Assembly: GCA_037447655.1 (NCBI GenBank) | Contig: JBBHKE010001545.1 | Location: 389,582-453,581, forward strand | Source: Zygnema cylindricum | Taxonomy: Eukaryota > Streptophyta > Zygnematophyceae > Zygnematales > Zygnemataceae | Direction of reading: 5' to 3' | DNA: 64,000 nt | Shown: piece after piece, positions 15,701 through 42,221 of the stretch | Numbering within the stretch: the stretch's first letter is position 1 | How the letters are laid out: each line of letters opens with the position of its first letter | The notes under the pieces: model-generated | What the model was told of the DNA's origin: nothing | The model's input: only the letters and a program-made list of their open reading frames with translations | Database searches by the model: none | Made by a program: the position numbers and the translations under genes

Positions 15701-18700
15701 TAGAAGTGCCGGTGACAGTAGAAACGTAGTTCAATAATGGAAGCTGTTTATCGGGCTAAATGAATTTCTTTATTTCCACCTTATTTGTATGCAAGAGTAA
15801 AAATAATATTGCGGTAAGAAACAAATAGTGCTATTAACGCTATTTTGGGTTCAAGGACCTAAAGCGAACAATGCATTAACGCTATTTCACACACATAACA
15901 CTACTTTATCCACACATTCCCATAGTATTGGTGCTATAGCCTTTGTTCACGTAGTCGCGTTTGAACATGTGAGAACAGGTGATTGTCCCCCGTTTTTGTT
16001 GCTATAAATCAAATCTGGGTGCGCTTTCCCGTGTCTACGCCACTCACTTTCCGTGTTGACGCCGTTATTTGACACTTTTTCTGTACTTTTGTACAAAAAC
16101 GAGCAGTGTTCGTGCGGATTGCACATTTTGTATTTAAATACCTCCTTAACCGTACCTATATTAAAATAGTATTATTAATTCTATTTTAGTTTCAAGGGTC
16201 GTAATTTTAACACTAATGGCGATACTAATCTTTTTGTAATTATAATGATTAATGATTTCTGTATTGAGACAAGCTTGTCCATGTATGATCTTTCTACAGC
16301 ATCTCTCTTTACGGCTCCTCTCCCCTGCCCCCTTTGTCTCTCTCTCATCTTCCTTCCCTGCTGATTGTGATTCTGATTCTTAAGCCCACCTTGAATTTCT
16401 CTCAGAGAAGTAGGAAGTCAGAGGATAACGGGACCTACAATGGTGTTCACGAGTTGTTTACATAATGCTTTAATTTGTAGATCTTGTTGTCCTTACGAAT
16501 ATCTTTTTTTTTACCCTTTTCATTTCCAGGAACTTATTGCTCGAAAAGATCATTTGATATCCGAACGAGCTACACCTCCTATGTACCTTCAGGCTGATCT
16601 CCGAAATCTCGATTTGCGCCCAGAAACATTCGGGACCAAATTTGACGTTATTCTTATTGATCCTCCATGGGAGGAATATGTACGAAGGGCTCCGGGAGTG
16701 GGAGATGGACTTGAGTGGTGGGCCCCGGAGGAAATTATGAGTCTTAGAATAGAGGTAAGAAAAGTGATGAAGAGATTCTCACTAGTGACAGTCTATTAGT
16801 ATTTTTTTTTTCCCTAGTAATGAGACTTTTGATTGTCGAAATGAGTAGTACAAGCACACTACCCGTCCTATTATTATCAGGCCACATTATGTTTGAACTA
16901 CATCGGTTTCTTTAGGCAGTATCCGGAAAATTTATTTAGTAGGGAACTTGAGTTAAACTGGATCTCGTCTGACAAAAAATATCATACATGCAATCGTGTG
17001 CACTGGCGTTACGATTGTGCGGATAATCTTGCAAAAAAAATTCACACCAATCTTGCAAAAATAGCTACTAGATTGTATGTTGAAAAGTTTGTTTTTTCAG
17101 CAACCTTTGGTCCAGAAAGGAGTAACTTTATGAGCCTTCCTAACTAGAGTATGGGACATAGAAACTATACTCTATACTGTAAAGCTGTTTCTGTGTTCAG
17201 GTTATTTTTCTTCATGTGTAGTTAGTGGAGATGGCCACATTATGTCGGAGGTGTACGATGAAATATTGTGTGGAAGAAATGACGCCCATAGGCTTGTTTC
17301 TTCTCTGATAATTTTGGTCCACTCTATTTTACGTGCATTAGCACATCATCATCTATTGTGGGGTTCATTTTAATTATAGCAGGAGCATAGTCCTGTATCA
17401 TAAATTCCCTCATCATAAGTTTGATAAAATTTAATTGTGATTTACGAAAGTGGGCAGTGACAAGTGGGAAAGTCTTGTTTTTTTTAGCACTTTAGACTGA
17501 AACTATCGTTAATTTACACTTTGAATTGATGTGTTTCCTGAAGTGGCTACTAAAATTCATAATTTTAGCAAAAAACAGAAAATTGATTCAGACTTGTGCT
17601 TTACTGTTGTATCTGTTTCTCTGAAAGCTGCGGGTACCCTAAAAAACTCATCTGTGAGCACAGACTTACTGGTGATGTGTTTTACAGTTAAAAAAAATTC
17701 TGATAGGTTCAAGCAAATAGGTCGTATCAGTTGTATGTAAGAATTTTAACGCCGGTATTGATAGAACAAGTGAAGTATATTGTTTATGAAGAAACTATTG
17801 AAACATAAAAAAACATACCGGCATACTATGTCCGGAACAAATTGTGCATGCTATTTGTGGCCGCAAAACGAGCAGGGAAAAAGGAAAGGATTGACAAATG
17901 ATGCCTGGGATAAACCTCTTTTTATATTGTGTGTGACAATTGTCGCAGGCAATAGCGGACACTCCATCTTTTGTCTTTTTGTGGGTAGGCGACGCTGAGG
18001 GTTTAGATAAGGGCCGAGCTTGTCTCAAAAAGGTAACCAGGTACTCCTGCCTTTTGCCATATGCCCTTTTTTTCCCGTAATTGGGCAATGTGCCAGTCTG
18101 TTTTCTTTTGAAGGTTGTTGATTCTCTTTCAGTTGTATTTCATGCGGCACCCTCTTTGTCTCTCCCTCTCTCACAGTCGTCTGCCGTGTCTCTGTTTGTC
18201 TGTTTGTTGTTTTCTCAGCCTCTCTCTTTGTTCTCCGCTGTCTGTTTTTCTTTGTAGTTGCTCATGTCCCTCCTTTTGTATCTGTTTATTTCCTTTCTTG
18301 CAATTCTCATGGCTACTGTGAAGCGCTCCCTCCCTCTCTCCCTCCCTCCCTCATCCCTCCTTCCCTCCTTCCCTCCCTCCCTCCCCCCTCTTCCTTTAAC
18401 CTTTTAATGCTCACTCTTGCATACGTTATCCTGGCAAAAGATTAGGGGAAAAAATAATGTATTTCAGATTTCTGAAGAAGTGGCGGAAGTTGTCCTTTTT
18501 ATTGTGCCCAACCCCCCTTCTTTTTTCGCTAAAAGGAAAAGTTTGTCTTTTTTATTGCTCTCCTTGGCAGTGGGGTTTCCGACGGTGTGAGGATATTTGC
18601 TGGATTAAGACAAACCGGAGGGCTCCTGGTAACAAGTACAGACATGAGACAGGGATGCTTTTCAAGCATTCCAAGGTAAGCTCAAGTACTGGATACACAT

Positions 18701-33475: not shown

Positions 33476-33845
33476 TATCAAAGTATCAAACTATCAAACG
33501 ATGAATTGCAGCAGTACGAAAGTGGGAGTGTGGGACTTACGGGTAAGATTTGATTGACATGGGCTGTCGGTGGCGTCGACGAAAAGGTCGGTGATTGATC
33601 CTTGCTACTGTACAGTACTGTAGTTGGCGTCTCAAAATTCACGCCTTGTACGGATGATGTTGCTCGCACGTAACAGACCAAGGAACATCATTCAACACAA
33701 CATCACATGAGTCGAAACCTAACCACTCTTGAAGGTCCCGACAAACAAGAAAACCGTTAAAATTTACTACCGTAGTAGCACGGGGGAAAGGCGTCAATCG
33801 CTTTGAACATCTCGTACGGTCGTTTCACTACCAAAGCTCTATCAA

Positions 33846-36800
33846 ATGAGCTTCTCTCCCCTCGCTCCCGTCTCTCGTCTCTCTCCCTCCACAATGTCGC
33901 CCCTCTCTCTCCTCCTTTTCCTCCTCTCCCTATCTATCCCTCTCCCTCTCCTTTCTCTCTCCATGGAGAGCGTGATAGGCATCCCAGGATCTCAAGTGTC
34001 TACAGACAAAGGAGCGGCTCTCTTACGTGGCACTTTGAGCTGCTTCCGAAAGCGTGGCACGTGGGAACGTACAGATGTACGGCGCAGGATCCCTTGGATT
34101 CGAGAATCATACGGAAGGGATGATCAGTGTAGCGCCGAGAACGAGCCAATCAAGGAGTCGAACGGAACGAGAATTCCGGAGGAGGTTTTGGAGGAGACAA
34201 AATGGGAATGGAAGGTTCCGAAATGTCGGTGGGAGAAATTGAAATACGAGAAGTTCTGTCGGTGAGAAGTGGGAGAATATTTTTTTTTGGCGTTGGGAGG
34301 GCAAAAAGGAGGCGGAGGGAAGGGAAGGTGAAATTTCGAAAATATATTTGTTGTTGGGAAAGGAATTCGGAGATTTTGTTTTCAAGGGAAGAGGGATTTC
34401 TTTTTTTAGAATATGGGTAATTCGGATAACAGTGGGAATACATTTAGTTTCTCCTAAATGTGTTTGCGCGTGTGTATTATTTATTTATTTATTTGTTTAT
34501 TTGTTTATATAATTGTTTACTTTGTGATTCCTGAATTTTATAAATTTGGCTCTTAGAAACCTTGAAAATTGGAGAGATTTTTGAAAGAGATTTTTAGATT
34601 TTCAGCTTCCTACTAGTCCTGCCGTTTAAAACAAAAACAAACAAAGAAAAAAAAACATGAATATAATATTTTAATCCACATTTTTGTCTTATACTCTATA
34701 TGTAGATCTACTGTAATTACTGTGAAAGGCTGAATTCTATAGATCAAGAAATCCAAGCTCATTCAAAAAGGAAAAAAAAAAACAACTTGCGTTCTTCGCA
34801 AAAGTGGATGTATGAAACCCATAAAGCTAAATTTCGGCTTAAAAGATCAAAACAATGATTTAAAAACTATTGTATAAAACTCGAGTTTTTATAATACTTA
34901 AAGTAGTTCAAGTGCAATCTTTGGAGCTTTCTGTGTATTAACGGTTTGGTAATATGTTCACAATTAAAACAAAATACTACTAAAATACTGTTGTGCATTT
35001 GCAAAAAACAATGCAGATTATGGTGTGCTCTCTTTGGGCTACAATAGGATCCTGGGTTCACCACATTAATTTCTGAGTGAATCGGTATTTTATTTTTTGC
35101 TTGCTCTGTGTAGTTTTCATTTTAATGTTTATTGGGAACAAGAATCTTTAGGGTTGATTTCCAGCCTGTCACGAATCACAATGTCCAAGTGTCGATAACA
35201 CTACTATAAGAATTTGAAAGAACAGTTCGACAAAAGTTCACGAATTTGACTCTGGTGCTGTTTCCCCTTCTACTAATATTTCTCTTTCCAACTCTGTTTG
35301 TTGGTCCATTTTCGTTTATTTTTCTTCTTTTGCTTCCTTTCCCTTTTCTGTTTCCGTTCCTGCATTCCCGTTTCACCATCCGTTTGAATGTCCATGACTG
35401 TCCATTTCTGTTGCTCTCTCAATTCTCATTTTTGTTTCTGTTTCCAGTCCTGTCTACATTTCTATTTTTACCACTATTTATCCTTTCGTCTCTATTTCCG
35501 TTCCATGTCTTTGTTTCTGTTCTATTTCCACTCTGTCCCATTCTATTTTCATGCCCATTTTAGTTTTTCATTCGGTTTTTTCTGTCCCCATTCCGTGTCC
35601 TAGTCTTTGTCCTTTTCTTTTCCATTCTCGTGTCCGTCTCTTGTGTTGATTTCCATTTTCGTCTCAGTGTCTGTTTTCTTTCCATTCTTATATCCGTTTC
35701 TGTGTCCAATTTTTGCCTCCGTTTCTATTTCCATTCCTCACCCTCCTTGTGCCTCTGTGCATGTCCATGTCTATTTCTGTGTCCGTGTCTCTGTTTTTCT
35801 GCCAGTTTTCGTTTTCGTTTCCCTTTCCATGTCTGTGCCTGTGACCGTTCCGTGCCCATGTTCCGTTTTGCGTGTTCCATGTCCGTGCCCATTCCTGTTC
35901 CCGTTCCATCTTTCCGCCTGTGTCGCCCCGTTTCACATTCCTTCCCTCTTCCACGTGTCCTTGTCTCCTGTCCCTGTCCCCTGTTTGCTGTCCTGTCTCC
36001 GCGTTGTGTTGGTCTTTTTCGCGATTCCTTGGGAGATTTGCCGAACAAGTAATTTTGGAATTGTTTTTCAGGGCGATGAGCGGCGCGTACGGGAAGGACG
36101 CGAGCATCCTGCTGGTGGGCGACGAGCTCGGCTGGGGCATGGAGCGCCGCCTCCTCTTCAGCCTGCTGGCCGACGCGCCCGGTAGGCCGCCTGCATGGGG
36201 AACTAGTAGGGATGGCGGAGGAGGGGGGAGGGAGGAGGGAGGAGGGAGGAGGGAGGAGGGAGGAGGGAGGAGGGAGGAGGGAGGAGGGAGGAGGGAGGAG
36301 GGAGGAGGGAGGAGGGAGGAGGGAGGAGGGAGGAGGGAGGAGGGAGGAGGGAGGAGGGAGGAGGGAGGAGGGAGGAGGGAGGAGGGAGGAGGGAGGAGGG
36401 AGGAGGGAGGAGGGAGGAGGGAGGAGGGAGGAGGGAGGAGGGAGGAGGGAGGAGGGAGGAGGGAGGAGGGAGGAGGGAGGAGGGAGGAGGGAGGAGGGAG
36501 GAGGGAGGAGGGAGGAGGGAGGAGGGAGGAGGGAGGAGGGAGGAGGGAGGAGGGAGGAGGGAGGAGGGAGGAGGGAGGAGGGAGGAGGGAGGAGGGAGGA
36601 GGGAGGAGGGAGGAGGGAGGAGGGAGGAGGGAGGAGGGAGGAGGGAGGAGGGAGGAGGGAGGAGGGAGGAGGGAGGAGGGAGGGCGGGACGGAGGGAGGG
36701 CGGGACGGAGGGAGGGGGTGGACTGAATAATGAGATTGGCAGTGGAAAGAAAAGGTCCTTGGAGCTATTGATGCAGACAGTGGGGGAGGGAGAGGGGAGA

Positions 36801-39800
36801 GGGAGGGGGAGGGATGGGGGACGTCATTTGTTTCCCATGCACACTTTGTTGGAGTTTTCATCGGCATGGTCAAAAGGCAAGAATGCCTTGTTTTTTCGAT
36901 TGGTGTATTTGGATAAAAATTGAACAATTTGTGATGCGGAAAGACAAGTTGTAGAGGCGAACGAATGGTAGTTCTAGTAACAGTGATACACGGTGTCGAA
37001 GCAATAGTGGTTAAGAAGAATCAAAGACTATCGTATTGAAACAGTGACATTCAATTTAACTAAGGTTTAACAAGATCCCATTTTCACCGTCATTTTATTT
37101 GGTCGATTCATGCTTTTTTCCCAATTTTCCTTTTATTTTATTGTCATTTGTTTCGTTTGGTTCTCCAGAAAATCCTCTTGTCGCCAATCTTTTTCCGGAT
37201 GGTTGTTCCGTTTGGGACGATGGACAAGAAAAAAAGTTTTGTTCTGGATATCGATATTGTGGGGATGTTCTTGGAGGTCCTACTGTTGCGGTACGGTTTG
37301 TCCTTAACCGAGATTTGACTTCTAGTCGAGTTCCCGACAAGGAAAACGGAGCCCCGTGGTTTATGGCGCTGTCCTTTTGGAGGCCTACGGTTGTGGTTTT
37401 AACCCACACCAAAACTAGCGTGGATGAAAAAAGTTTCCAGGATAACCTTTTGAAATCTTACATTTGGTTGAGAAAGCATTATCCAAACACTCTCGTGATT
37501 TACAGGAGTAATCCCAATGGTGAGATTTTTTATTTTTTTTAAAGGTTATCTTGGATATTTGAATAATTTTTGTAGGTGTTTTTAAGGTTCTTGTGAGGTG
37601 TATTTTAACGCCTCAACAGAAGGTGACAAAAAAAAATCATGTTTAGGGCCCCAAGGAAAACCGCAAGAATTTTTTCTTTTCTTTCATTATTTAATAGTAG
37701 GAACTCCTCACTAATTGTTGTGAGTACATGTTTTGCAAGTAAGGGTTGTTTGACACTGACGACCAAAAATGTTTATTTGTTCATTTTTCACCTTCAAACA
37801 TTAAAAGAGAGAGTTTAGCTCATAAATAGTTTGGACAACAATAATGGCGACGGACAGTGAGTGGTATTAAGTGACGTTGCTTAAGGGCTGTCAATTTAAG
37901 GAATTCACATGGTCATTATAACGATTGGCTTGGAACATTTTCAGTGTGGGGAATTACCAATTTAATTATGCTCCTTTCAAACAGCATCCGATACAAACTC
38001 AGTTTTTTTTTTCTTTTGCGTTTTTTGCATTTGCAAGGGGCTGTGGGATTGCATTTCCTATTATTTAGAAAAACAACTTTATCACTAACTACTATTTGTG
38101 CACTTTTTTTTTTCAAGAGATGGTAAAAGATCGTCTTTTTGCTGTTGACTATTATTATTTCATTCTTTTTTCATTTTTGCTTTTTTTAGCAGTCACTGGA
38201 TTGCACATTGATATCAATTGAAAAGATTAGTTAAATATTTCTCTCTGCCTCTCCCTCTCTCCCTCTCTCCCTCTCTCCCTCCATTTTTTTGTTTATGGCA
38301 GTTCGTGCCTGCCCTGCTCCTGGGCAAGAATTTCCTGAAGACTCCACAAATGACAAAAAAACTTTGGAGTGGAACCGAAGCCGCCAAAATGAAATTGCAA
38401 AAAAGTTAACCAATAAATGGGGTGGACTCTATTTGGATGTGGATGAAGCTATCGAAAAGAGAAATGGAAAAAGTATTTTTTTGAATTACAATGGGGGTAG
38501 ATCACAAAACTGCATTAATTTATGCCATCCGGGTCCTCTAGATTCTTGGGTAGATTTATTTTATAATACGCTATTAGCGGCTCTACCTTCTGCTGAAATG
38601 ATAAATGAGTTTGATTCAGATGTGACAGAAAAACAGAGTAACCTCTATGTACCCTCCAAGTTGGGAAGAATTACCGTGGACAGATTTGCTAGAAAAGCGC
38701 CAGAAAAAGCTCCGGTTTTGAGAATTCCGATCCCTGGTTCAAAAATTCGCACTATTAGCGAGCTAGAAAGGGTAAACCGGAAATTTAATTGTCTAGTGAA
38801 AAAGGGAAAATGGGTATATAATTCGAAACCTCGTCTTTTAGCATGGCCTCAAAAGCCGCTGAAGGAAATACAACCTTGTGACGTTCGTCAAATTAAAAAA
38901 GGAGGAGTATTTGGTTTGGAAGCTGATGAAATCGCGATGAAAGGGGGGAATTGGAGTATAAGGGAAGACTTAAAATGGGATTGGGAAACACCCACCTGCC
39001 CGATCAAGAATTTTTCGCGGGAAAATTTTTGCAAGTGAGTTTGTTTCCCCTCTTTTTAATGGGTTTCTATGAGGTTTCAACCACTTACAATAATTAATTA
39101 AGTTACCAGACGTTTTTTGGCTAGATTATCCTCTGACAAGAAAAACTAAACGAGTTTAAGAAGTTTACGTAAAACGAAACACGAAACATGAACAATTTTT
39201 TGGCCAAAACAAGAGAAAAGTCACTTTTTGGATCTATATTAAACGTTGGTGTCAGGAAATTTTTAGAGGATGTCAAAAGACATAAATGTTTGAACGCAAA
39301 AACAGTAAAAGCTACAGCCACAAATTAGAGTAGCCTTAAACATGATGGGCTTAGAAAAGTGGGGCCCAAGAAAATCCAGGGTACCATGACTGATTTTGAT
39401 GGACATTCGTTTGTACTGTTTCACAGCTTTCTTCATAGTTCTCTTAATATTTGTTGTGTCACCGTCGTGTCTAGAATCCAAACACGGCATACTGGAACTT
39501 AGTTTGGTGTGCTCAAATGTAAAATTGGCCCATCGGTTCTTAAGATCCTTTGGATGACATTTTCGTTTTTTTGGCCTTTTACCACAATTAGCGTGGTCCA
39601 TAGTGTTTTAGTAAATTTTAAGCTTATTTTGCTAGTCTTCCAAGGTGAATTAGGTGAATAGTAAGCTAGATAAGACATCAGAATATTAGCAAATCTTACC
39701 AAAATTACTGTGGATTTTAGCAACTGTCACACACTTTTGAACTTGGTACAACTCACAGTAAAGTGGTGAAAATTGCTTTGGAAAATGTACAATTGTCATA

Positions 39801-42221
39801 TTTTATGTGTTTCCTAATAATGTGGAAGGTCCCGACTGAAATTTGCAAAGTACCGTTAAACAATAGTAAGTTTTTTAAGTGCATAGAAAAGCTGTGAAAA
39901 GTTGAACAAGGGTGTTGGCTGTTAGACATACTCAAACAATTAGGAGTCTTTTTCAAGATTTGTAAAAAATTGTTTTATAAAGGTTTTACTCAAAATTAAG
40001 AGTCTTGTAATTAAAAAAACGGAAACAATATTTGATTTTTTTGCAATTTTGATTGTTTATGAAATTTCGTTTTTGATATCCAAATCTTCTTAAATATTCC
40101 CCACGTCTCAATCAAGATAGTTTTACGCCTATCCAGTGTCGTCGTAATAAAATGACTCACACTTTATGATATATGTTTTTTTCTTTTACTCTCCAGGATG
40201 ATGGGTCCTGGTCGCAGTATTCTCTTTTTGGGTGACTCTATGAGTATTGGATTCTATCGCTCTCTCTTATTCAACCTACTCGTGGGACATGACACTGGTT
40301 AGCTCCCTCTCTTCCTTTTCCTTTTCCTCTCCCTCTCCCTCTCCCGCTCCCTCTCCCCCTCTCCATCCCCTTTCCCTCCCCTTCTTCCTCCTCTACTTTC
40401 ACTAATTCCTCCAATTTACTCCCCCCTCTCCCTTCCCCCCTCCTCCCTCACCTTCCTTGCTTCATTTCCCTTATTTCTTATTTCCTCCTTTTTCTTTCCA
40501 CAGAAAGTTACCCTCCGGTCAACCTTTTCCCGGGCAAGTTTCGAGAATGGGACGTTGGTCTAAGACGAGAAGTTTGTGAAGGATTCTCCCACTGTCACGA
40601 GTTCTATGGAAATCGATCCGTTGAAATTCGGTTGTGTTTTAACCGAGGCTTGACTTTAACGGAAGTTCCGTTAGACGGAGAGGCTCCATGGGCGGTGAAA
40701 CTGGAAGAATGGAATCCGTCGATTGTGGTTTTGAACCGGGGCGCGCATTATAGAGAAGATGCCGCATTTGAGGCGGGAGTGAGAGACGCGCTGCGATACT
40801 TAAGGGGGAGACTGCCGAAGTCTCTATTACTGTGGAGGAATACGGCGCCAGGTGGGAGGGGGAGGGAGCGGGAGGGGGAGGGGGAGGGAGAGGGAGCGGG
40901 AGAGGGGGAGGGGGAGGAAACATGTCAACAAGAAACGTTAAGTACACTAAAATTCAAACTGAACTGAATTGTAATAAGGTCAAACTATTTTCATTAGTCA
41001 AGCGAATCAAAGTCAAAGTTTGAAGTTCATGGAATAAATATGGTTAGAGTCTTGACCATGGTTTTCAAGTGCGGAAATTCTCGTGGAATCACACAATTCT
41101 GATCCAAATCTTACCAGTATTTTCCTTAGTGAAGTTCGCACTGAAAGTGTACAATAGCTTTTCAGTTTTTTTAACTCTCGAACTAGGCTCTTACCACTCT
41201 TGTTTAAAGACTTTATTTTAATTGTAGTCATCTCATTTCATTTTTAGAATGTTCTCCATTCGAGATCATTCGGTAAGACAGAACCTCCATTCATTTCCTT
41301 TTTTTGTCAAAAGAAACCTAGGCAGTCTTTGGTCAAAAGATAAGACATGTATTGTAATGTTGCGAGTTTGTTTTACGTAGAAGATTTTTCTGTTTAGGTT
41401 TCTCCATCAAGCAGTACCCTAAATCAGGTGAAACTCTAATGGGAATTTGCCTTTTGTTCCCCCTGACAACACACTAGAACTTCTGAGTAATATCTGCCGT
41501 TTGTCGGTATTTGTTTTTAAACTGCCGAAAACAGCTGACTATGTTTCGAGCTGATTCCTTTTTTTATGTCTGTCACATTCTGTAAACTATTCTTTATTTA
41601 GAGTAAATGACAAAGCAAAAAAAAACCCCTCTTAATTTTTTTTCTCCATAAGATGACTAGGTGCATCTAACTTGAAAAGATCCATTTTGTTTCCCATTCT
41701 TCACCGGGGTTCACCTGTTTCTTTTTCTCATTGTTATTACTTGGTCGATTGAATAAATGAAGTCAGACATTGTGGTTTAAATTCTTGTTAAGCTTCTCAA
41801 ATCACCCAAGAACATTTAACTAGTCTCCTCTCTCCGATTTTGTTTCTAAAACTGAAAATTCACTTGAACACCCACAACAACCAGTTAAACTAAATAACCT
41901 TTCACCCAACCTTTTTCGTTTTTTCCAGGCCATGTAAACTGTATGACGTACGATGGACCAATCAGTGTCCCCCAAGATCCCTCTCTCCTCCCTTATAATT
42001 TCCATTGGGCGGATTTTAGACACCAAAATGATATTGCCAAAAAATATGTAAAAGAAGTTGGAGGCGTATATATGGACATAGAACATTCCACATCCCTTAG
42101 ACCTGATGGACATCGGGGTTTTAATGCTGCTGGAGTTCCTGATTGTCTCCATTATTGCCAACCGGGAATTCCTGATACATGGACACAATTAATGTACAAT
42201 TTTTTCAAGGAACTTTTGTGA
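33846..42221 (+). CDS. Tandem two-domain SGNH/PC-esterase (TBL-related), first domain catalytically dead
   Basis: Seven exons, 33846-34261, 36072-36181, 37169-37519, 38302-39034, 40197-40297, 40504-40851, 41929-42221, join without a stop to 783 residues. A hydrophobic segment (about residues 17-39, SPLSLLLFLLSLS) is a signal peptide or signal anchor. Domain 2 has the family's GDS serine (S551, LFLGDSMS), and the D758/H761 pair in PDCLHYCQPGIPDTW. Domain 1 aligns along its length (VGDELGWG, NCINLCHPGPLDSW) but has E157 for Ser, N362 for Asp and N365 for His. A W-x-W...C...FC motif precedes each GDS/GDE, as in TBL/PMR5 proteins, which act as polysaccharide O-acetyltransferases or esterases in the Golgi. 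Introns sit at matching positions and phases (2, 1, 1) in both halves, so one unit was duplicated within the gene. The substrate cannot be told from sequence. Confidence 0.88.
35240..36010 (+). repeat. Degenerate pyrimidine-rich minisatellite in esterase intron 1
   Basis: About 770 bp of loosely repeated TTTCCGTTTCTGTGTCC-like words ending shortly before the acceptor at 36071. Long Phe/Ser/Pro/Cys open frames on the + strand are artefacts of this composition. Confidence 0.7.
36228..36684 (+). repeat. (GGAGGGA)n microsatellite, about 65 units, in esterase intron 2
   Basis: A near-uninterrupted 7-bp repeat of about 457 bp begins some 45 bp after the donor of exon 2 and is followed by GGGCGGGACGGAGGGA units. 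It is strongly G-quadruplex-prone on the transcribed RNA. The 7-bp unit leaves all frames open (a GGGRREE heptad), but splice sites and homology with domain 2 place it in an intron. Confidence 0.95.
38241..38283 (+). repeat. Pyrimidine (CTCTCCCT)n tract upstream of esterase exon 4
   Basis: A run of CTCTCCCTCT words ends 18 bp before the acceptor of exon 4 (AG at 38300-38301) and could serve as an extended polypyrimidine tract. It is roughly complementary to the GGAGGGA array in intron 2. Confidence 0.75.
40337..40906. repeat. Perfect 21-bp inverted repeat flanking esterase exon 6
   Basis: The pyrimidine stretch 40337-40357 (CCCTCTCCCGCTCCC...) in intron 5 is exactly complementary to the purine stretch 40886-40906 in intron 6 (...GAGCGGGAGAGGG), including the off-pattern CG. 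The arms lie 146 bp before and 34 bp after exon 6 (40504-40851), each inside longer C/T- or G/A-rich tracts. Confidence 0.85.

Follow-up and report, generated by a model that had tools for sequence, protein, structure and literature searches.

Plant TBL proteins carry a Ser-His-Asp triad drawn from the GDS and DxxH motifs, and PMC11360243 describes an acetyl-enzyme in XOAT1 and the abolition of transfer when these motifs are mutated. Here we describe a gene of the zygnematophyte alga Zygnema cylindricum that encodes two domains of the PC-esterase fold in one protein, the first (D1, residues ~44-388) without the triad and the second (D2, residues ~434-783) with it. The gene occupies 33846..42221 on the forward strand of a window of 64,000 nucleotides, the whole stretch analysed, which corresponds to positions 389,582 to 453,581 of contig JBBHKE010001545.1 (assembly GCA_037447655.1). 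An earlier reading of these letters, referred to here as the original prediction, had proposed two fused SGNH/PC-esterase domains made by intragenic duplication. We consider it probable, at roughly 60%, that an inactive D1 has been kept alongside a fused, active D2 as a helper in glycan binding or scaffolding.

Judged from its motifs, D1 is a pseudoenzyme, a point missed in the original prediction. In the window protein, GDE (residues 155-157; codons 36118..36126) stands in D1 where D2 has GDS (residues 549-551; codons 40231..40239), its expected nucleophile, and NCIN (residues 362-365; codons 38508..38519) stands where D2 has DCLH (residues 758-761; codons 42141..42152), its expected triad Asp and His. 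D2 also retains R-x-D-x-H and the block III sequence LNRGAHY. A protein search with the whole sequence (7996 candidates scored) returned eight matches, of which P0001-P0004 contain both halves in one protein with 93-100% query coverage and 35-48% identity, and a second, profile-based search listed three proteins, adding P0009 and P0010. For the column counts, P0009_D1 (40% filled) and the D2 of P0010, which is cut, were set aside, and P0007 was kept out of all family counts. Among the six D1 copies that show the nucleophile column, it is occupied by Glu in three and by Asp in three, whereas it is Ser in all seven D2 copies and in all 24 single-domain relatives selected for comparison. The columns of H748, D758 and H761 are likewise intact in those 31 proteins and in none of the six D1 copies. 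When P0005 and P0009 are counted, DxxH is gone from D1 in 8/8; in the D2 family, GDS is present in 8/8 and DCLH in the 7/7 long enough to reach it.

Profile searches gave the same division. The PF13839 search of the joined protein, which the original prediction had suggested, placed D2 above the cut-off of 27 (52.3 bits) and D1 below it, at 13.6 bits with one choice of domain borders and 13.9 with another. None of six D1 copies reached this cut-off, five of them giving no match at E-values up to 1, and when the full protein was searched, D1 gave a weak match to Lipase_GDSL_2 that, at 17.1 bits, fell below the cut-off of 32.9 for that profile. In P0001-P0004 at full length the sole stretch matched by the PC-Esterase profile lies in D2, and it is therefore likely that profile annotation shows a single domain in such proteins. 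Thus the claim of two PC-esterase-fold domains stands, with only D2 an intact PC-esterase, and the number of catalytic domains is one, as in the TBL proteins with which a contrast had been drawn. Two active domains were also considered, and are ruled out by the lost D1 motifs. Three relatives counted as single-domain (P0017, P0019 and P0029) each show DCLH twice.

The best solved-structure match for the D2 family is 6CCI (XOAT1), and a profile alignment to it pairs H748 of D2 with His437 of XOAT1. Since the TBL/XOAT1 mechanism needs GDS and DxxH, D2 would be able to work and D1 would not, at least by the triad route; by analogy, D2 is a putative active polysaccharide O-acyl transferase or esterase. 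XOAT1, as described in PMC9487903, has hydrophobic residues at the usual place of the block III Asn, and D2 keeps this residue (N648, within LNRGAHY; Asn in seven D2 copies and 24 single-domain proteins), so that esterase activity of D2 is possible. The more specific proposal that D2 removes acyl groups instead of transferring them, with D1 then a carbohydrate-binding module, draws on the same Asn; we regard it as somewhat unlikely, given that XOAT1 is the closest solved structure, that the counterpart of His437 is conserved, and that no motif here separates transferase from esterase.

What D1 has kept bears on why it is still there. A predicted model of one D1 adopts an SGNH fold like that of Arabidopsis XOAT1; Foldseek with this model also lists small GTPases with weaker E-values (from 2.1e-4), which we take as a shared strand and helix layout. 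Seven of eight shared cysteines are kept in 6/6 D1 copies, and the eight Cys columns score 0.93 in D1. The 14 active-site columns used for comparison were picked as near-invariant in D2 and the single-domain proteins, so that the D2 score of 1.000 holds by construction and information comes from the score of D1. Faster change in D1 than in D2, together with the loss of the catalytic columns, could mean that D1 is a decaying relic of little function carried along by D2. This is improbable in view of a D1 frame open in six proteins, the well-kept cysteines, the 18 residues that are invariant across five species in D1 and peculiar to it (11 once P0010 is added), and an identity between P0002 and P0003 that is not far lower in D1 (52.9%) than in D2 (59.8%).

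The invariant residues also invite the opposite suggestion, namely that D1 is not inert and has acquired a new site, for catalysis or for binding, in which an acidic residue replaces Ser and His255 was gained beside the old block III Asn. An acid does occupy the nucleophile place in 6/6 D1 copies, H255 is invariant in five D1 copies and absent from five D2 copies, and Y134, R165, S201 and R204 behave likewise and extend to P0010 (6/6 D1). Against this, P0010_D1 has Leu for H255 and Phe for W160 (Trp in the other five of six), the residue preceding the acid may be Asp or Gly, and other former active-site columns vary too; a new site of this kind is accordingly a doubtful proposition. A broader version, to which we give a little more credence while still thinking it unlikely, is that D1 was re-tooled, the fixed Asp/Glu and the D1-only residues building a new site by which the acceptor polysaccharide is sensed or held, or which is even catalytic, and which gates D2. 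If that were true, D1 and D2 would form a tandem pseudoenzyme-enzyme pair with no reported PC-esterase precedent in the literature searched.

The gene model was rebuilt from the sequence and agrees with the original prediction of seven exons in one frame: the joined exons amount to 2352 nucleotides with a single stop, at the end, giving 783 residues, and all six introns have GT..AG borders. Exon 1 (33846..34261) encodes a signal or anchor segment (~residues 18-38) and the D1 lead, and an in-frame stop at 33804 lies 5' of its ATG. Exon 2 (36072..36181) encodes the block I strand and helix of D1 with GDE, and exon 3 (37169..37519) the D1 core, in which the block III N-x-G-x-H is gone and residues 254-258 read THTKT. 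Their counterparts in D2 are exon 5 (40197..40297; block I, GDS intact) and exon 6 (40504..40851; D2 core with block III), and the exon lengths reported earlier (110 and 351 versus 101 and 348) were recovered. Exon 7 (41929..42221) completes D2 with RPDGH and DCLHYC and ends in TGA. The exact splice sites are predicted ones, because none of the protein-search matches was a transcript from the species of the window. Exon 2 has a guanine-plus-cytosine (GC) content of 0.74 and, at third codon positions (GC3), of 1.00, against a GC3 of 0.32-0.59 in the other six exons, perhaps reflecting local GC-biased conversion; it ends 35 bases ahead of an array in intron 2 in which the 7-mer GGAGGAG is repeated about 71 times (36217-36715, forward strand, 97% matches).

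Exon 4 (38302..39034, 733 nucleotides) speaks for the unity of the gene, since its frame continues uninterrupted from the tail of D1 through a linker of ~40 residues into the D2 lead. The two-domain layout itself could be the product of two neighbouring genes wrongly merged, and the open reading frames (ORFs) of P0005 and P0009, which start inside D1, would suit such a merger. We rejected it as exceedingly improbable on the strength of exon 4 and of the same layout in P0001-P0004, three of which (P0002-P0004) bear Trinity transcript names in EukProt; the window protein also has no second signal segment. The earlier statement that these are not two genes therefore holds, as does that of a single N-terminal signal: hydropathy places one segment above the threshold used in the 783 residues, near residue 20 and compatible with an anchor or a cleaved signal. 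An N-terminal hydrophobic segment was found in five of eight proteins examined (the window protein, P0002, P0003, P0004 and P0010), whereas P0001, P0005 and P0009, whose sequences begin further in, lack one; a second, weaker hydrophobic stretch is present in P0003 and in P0010.

The common origin of the halves is indicated by both sequence and introns. D1 and D2 share 29% identity across 360 columns (E-value 1e-47), and introns 1/4, 2/5 and 3/6 share phases 2, 1 and 1, as had been noted before. The paired introns fall at columns 508/508, 549/550 and 774/774 of the multiple alignment; in the pairwise alignment they are offset by 0, 1 and 7 columns, a closeness equalled by 2 of 200,000 random placings. 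We built a tree of 39 rows, including P0009_D1 and excluding P0007, with 24 single-domain relatives from among the 52 matches of a further search (P0005 apart). Once their motifs had been scanned, these 24 were selected by visual inspection with regard to length and spread, fragments and odd models being omitted; all 24 carry GDS and DCxH. In this tree the D1 and D2 copies form one clade (support 98/95) with the 24 relatives outside, D1 forms its own clade (100/100), whose stem measures 0.91 changes per site, and both halves of the window protein and P0001-P0004 show the same branching order. The truncated P0010_D2 is placed next to D1, though weakly supported (85/30), and with it included no single branch sets D2 apart (2 changes). 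In a quick tree with six extra rows the 15 D1 and D2 rows still grouped together (Shimodaira-Hasegawa-like approximate likelihood ratio test, SH-aLRT, 91). The joint clade and the shared branching order of the halves support one old duplication that preceded the divergence of the five full two-domain proteins, and D1 probably lost catalysis a single time, at an early stage. As the signal segment is single and there is no intron at the join, we prefer a route in which the gene was duplicated in tandem and the last exon of copy 1 then fused with the first exon of copy 2. Duplication inside one gene may have been the route instead, although tandem fusion fits at least as well; the duplication origin in the original prediction is thus upheld, and its intragenic route is not separable from tandem duplication plus fusion.

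Retained pseudoenzyme domains usually bind the acceptor or support an active partner. In the account that we favour, the product would be a secreted or Golgi-lumen protein consisting of an inactive, XOAT1-like D1 and an active D2. An intron-bearing single-domain ancestor was probably duplicated in tandem and its copies joined within the present exon 4, which the introns, the tree and the homologues support. The alignment shows that D1 lost its nucleophile, histidines and triad Asp and kept nearly all shared cysteines, and the one D1 model predicts that it retained the fold. By comparison with XOAT1, D2 would use Ser551, His761 and Asp758 for the transfer or removal of an acyl group on a cell-wall or matrix polysaccharide, and D1 may hold the polysaccharide or stabilise or position D2.

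Several observations weigh against this account. We infer the function of either domain from sequence and analogy, and the full-length model, computed from five sequences, has a predicted template modelling score (pTM) of 0.48, so that it does not set the domain arrangement. The alignment behind the D1-only model contained D2 and single-domain relatives, which favours a shared fold. Conservation of the cysteines is incomplete, as C615, one of nine D2 cysteines checked, is absent in 6/6 D1 copies and C601 in one; between-species identity of 32-53% in D1 against 42-60% in D2 also fits weak constraint. P0010 contains D1 and the first part of D2 and is labelled a complete ORF at its source though D2 is cut, and the ORFs of P0005 and P0009 are labelled complete yet begin inside D1, which may represent truncation or a genuine short form lacking most of D1. 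Nor is the motif picture entirely clean: the letters GDS occur in 45 of all 52 further matches, DCxH in 50 and both in 44, some of the remainder being short. The Closterium gene models P0039 and P0040, which look degenerate or mispredicted, have GVE at the nucleophile column and DCTR instead of DCLH; these were two of four models added in the quick tree, and of the other two, P0018 keeps both motifs and P0036 has a GDS that the alignment does not place in the nucleophile column. D1 is thus not the only place where GDS has been lost.

Regarding the distribution of the family, 14 of the 16 matches with an organism label (53 in all) in the further search from which the tree relatives were taken were from Closterium (best E-value 6.7e-47), the others being one from Diplonema (3.3e-18) and one from Seminavis (7.6e-13). 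A viral or phage origin was considered and rejected: none of the 97 pattern matches from one viral-contig scan that used the two-domain alignment was confirmed, and tblastn of D2 against phage records gave no matches. Elsewhere in the window, an exon-like frame at 16395-16799 (forward strand) has a weak MT-A70 match (19.8 bits against a cut-off of 23.9), and presumably resembles METTL14-type RNA methyltransferases. On the reverse strand, 49105-50253 matches the Copia-type gag PF14223 (46.5 bits) and is probably a retrotransposon; a neighbouring frame has a weak zinc-knuckle match (17.2 bits against 20.8).

For the question of acceptor recognition by polysaccharide O-acyltransferases of the plant type, a fusion of a dead and a live domain that several lineages have retained amounts to a natural experiment, in which the loss or exchange of D1 would reveal the contribution of the non-catalytic parts of the fold. 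In addition, profile annotation can miss a pseudo-domain, so such pairs may be more numerous than databases suggest. Among the matches listed from the open-licence literature, judged by titles and the beginnings of abstracts, no two-domain or pseudoenzyme PC-esterase was found. The family itself is known, and the conserved dead-plus-live tandem is new within it.

Among the closest described systems is Arabidopsis XOAT1/ESKIMO1 (PDB 6CCI, PF13839), which resembles the window protein in the predicted fold of D1, in the GDS, R-x-D-x-H (His437) and DxxH that profile alignment matches to D2, and in an N-terminal hydrophobic segment, reported for XOAT1 in PMC9487903. XOAT1 has a single PC-esterase domain and, according to the same review, no block III Asn, whereas the protein described here has two domains, the first without the triad. 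PF14416, the PMR5N lead for which the original prediction had proposed a search, was not listed for the window protein at E-values up to 1, in which it differs from the land-plant TBL/PMR5 subfamily. The Closterium single-domain proteins P0021, P0022 and P0023 are 28, 29 and 34% identical to D2 and share GDS, NRGAH and DCLHYCLPGP, but no D1-like half was seen in them and they lie outside the D1-D2 clade. P0007 of Closterium sp. Naga37s-1 (1197 residues) is likewise made of two halves resembling PC-esterases, with GDA and NCHH in its first half; however, its halves group with each other and not with D1 or D2 (SH-aLRT 93), the second has GDT and ends before DxxH, and the gene model is broken up. 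This separate protein suggests that two-half pairings arose more than once, or that its gene model is a merger. Finally, in plant AXY9 and bacterial AlgJ/AlgX, as treated in PMC11360243, polysaccharide acylation is likewise thought to involve more than one SGNH-type protein, but these are separate proteins and AXY9 keeps GDS and DxxH, whereas in Zygnema the partner is fused and has lost both motifs.
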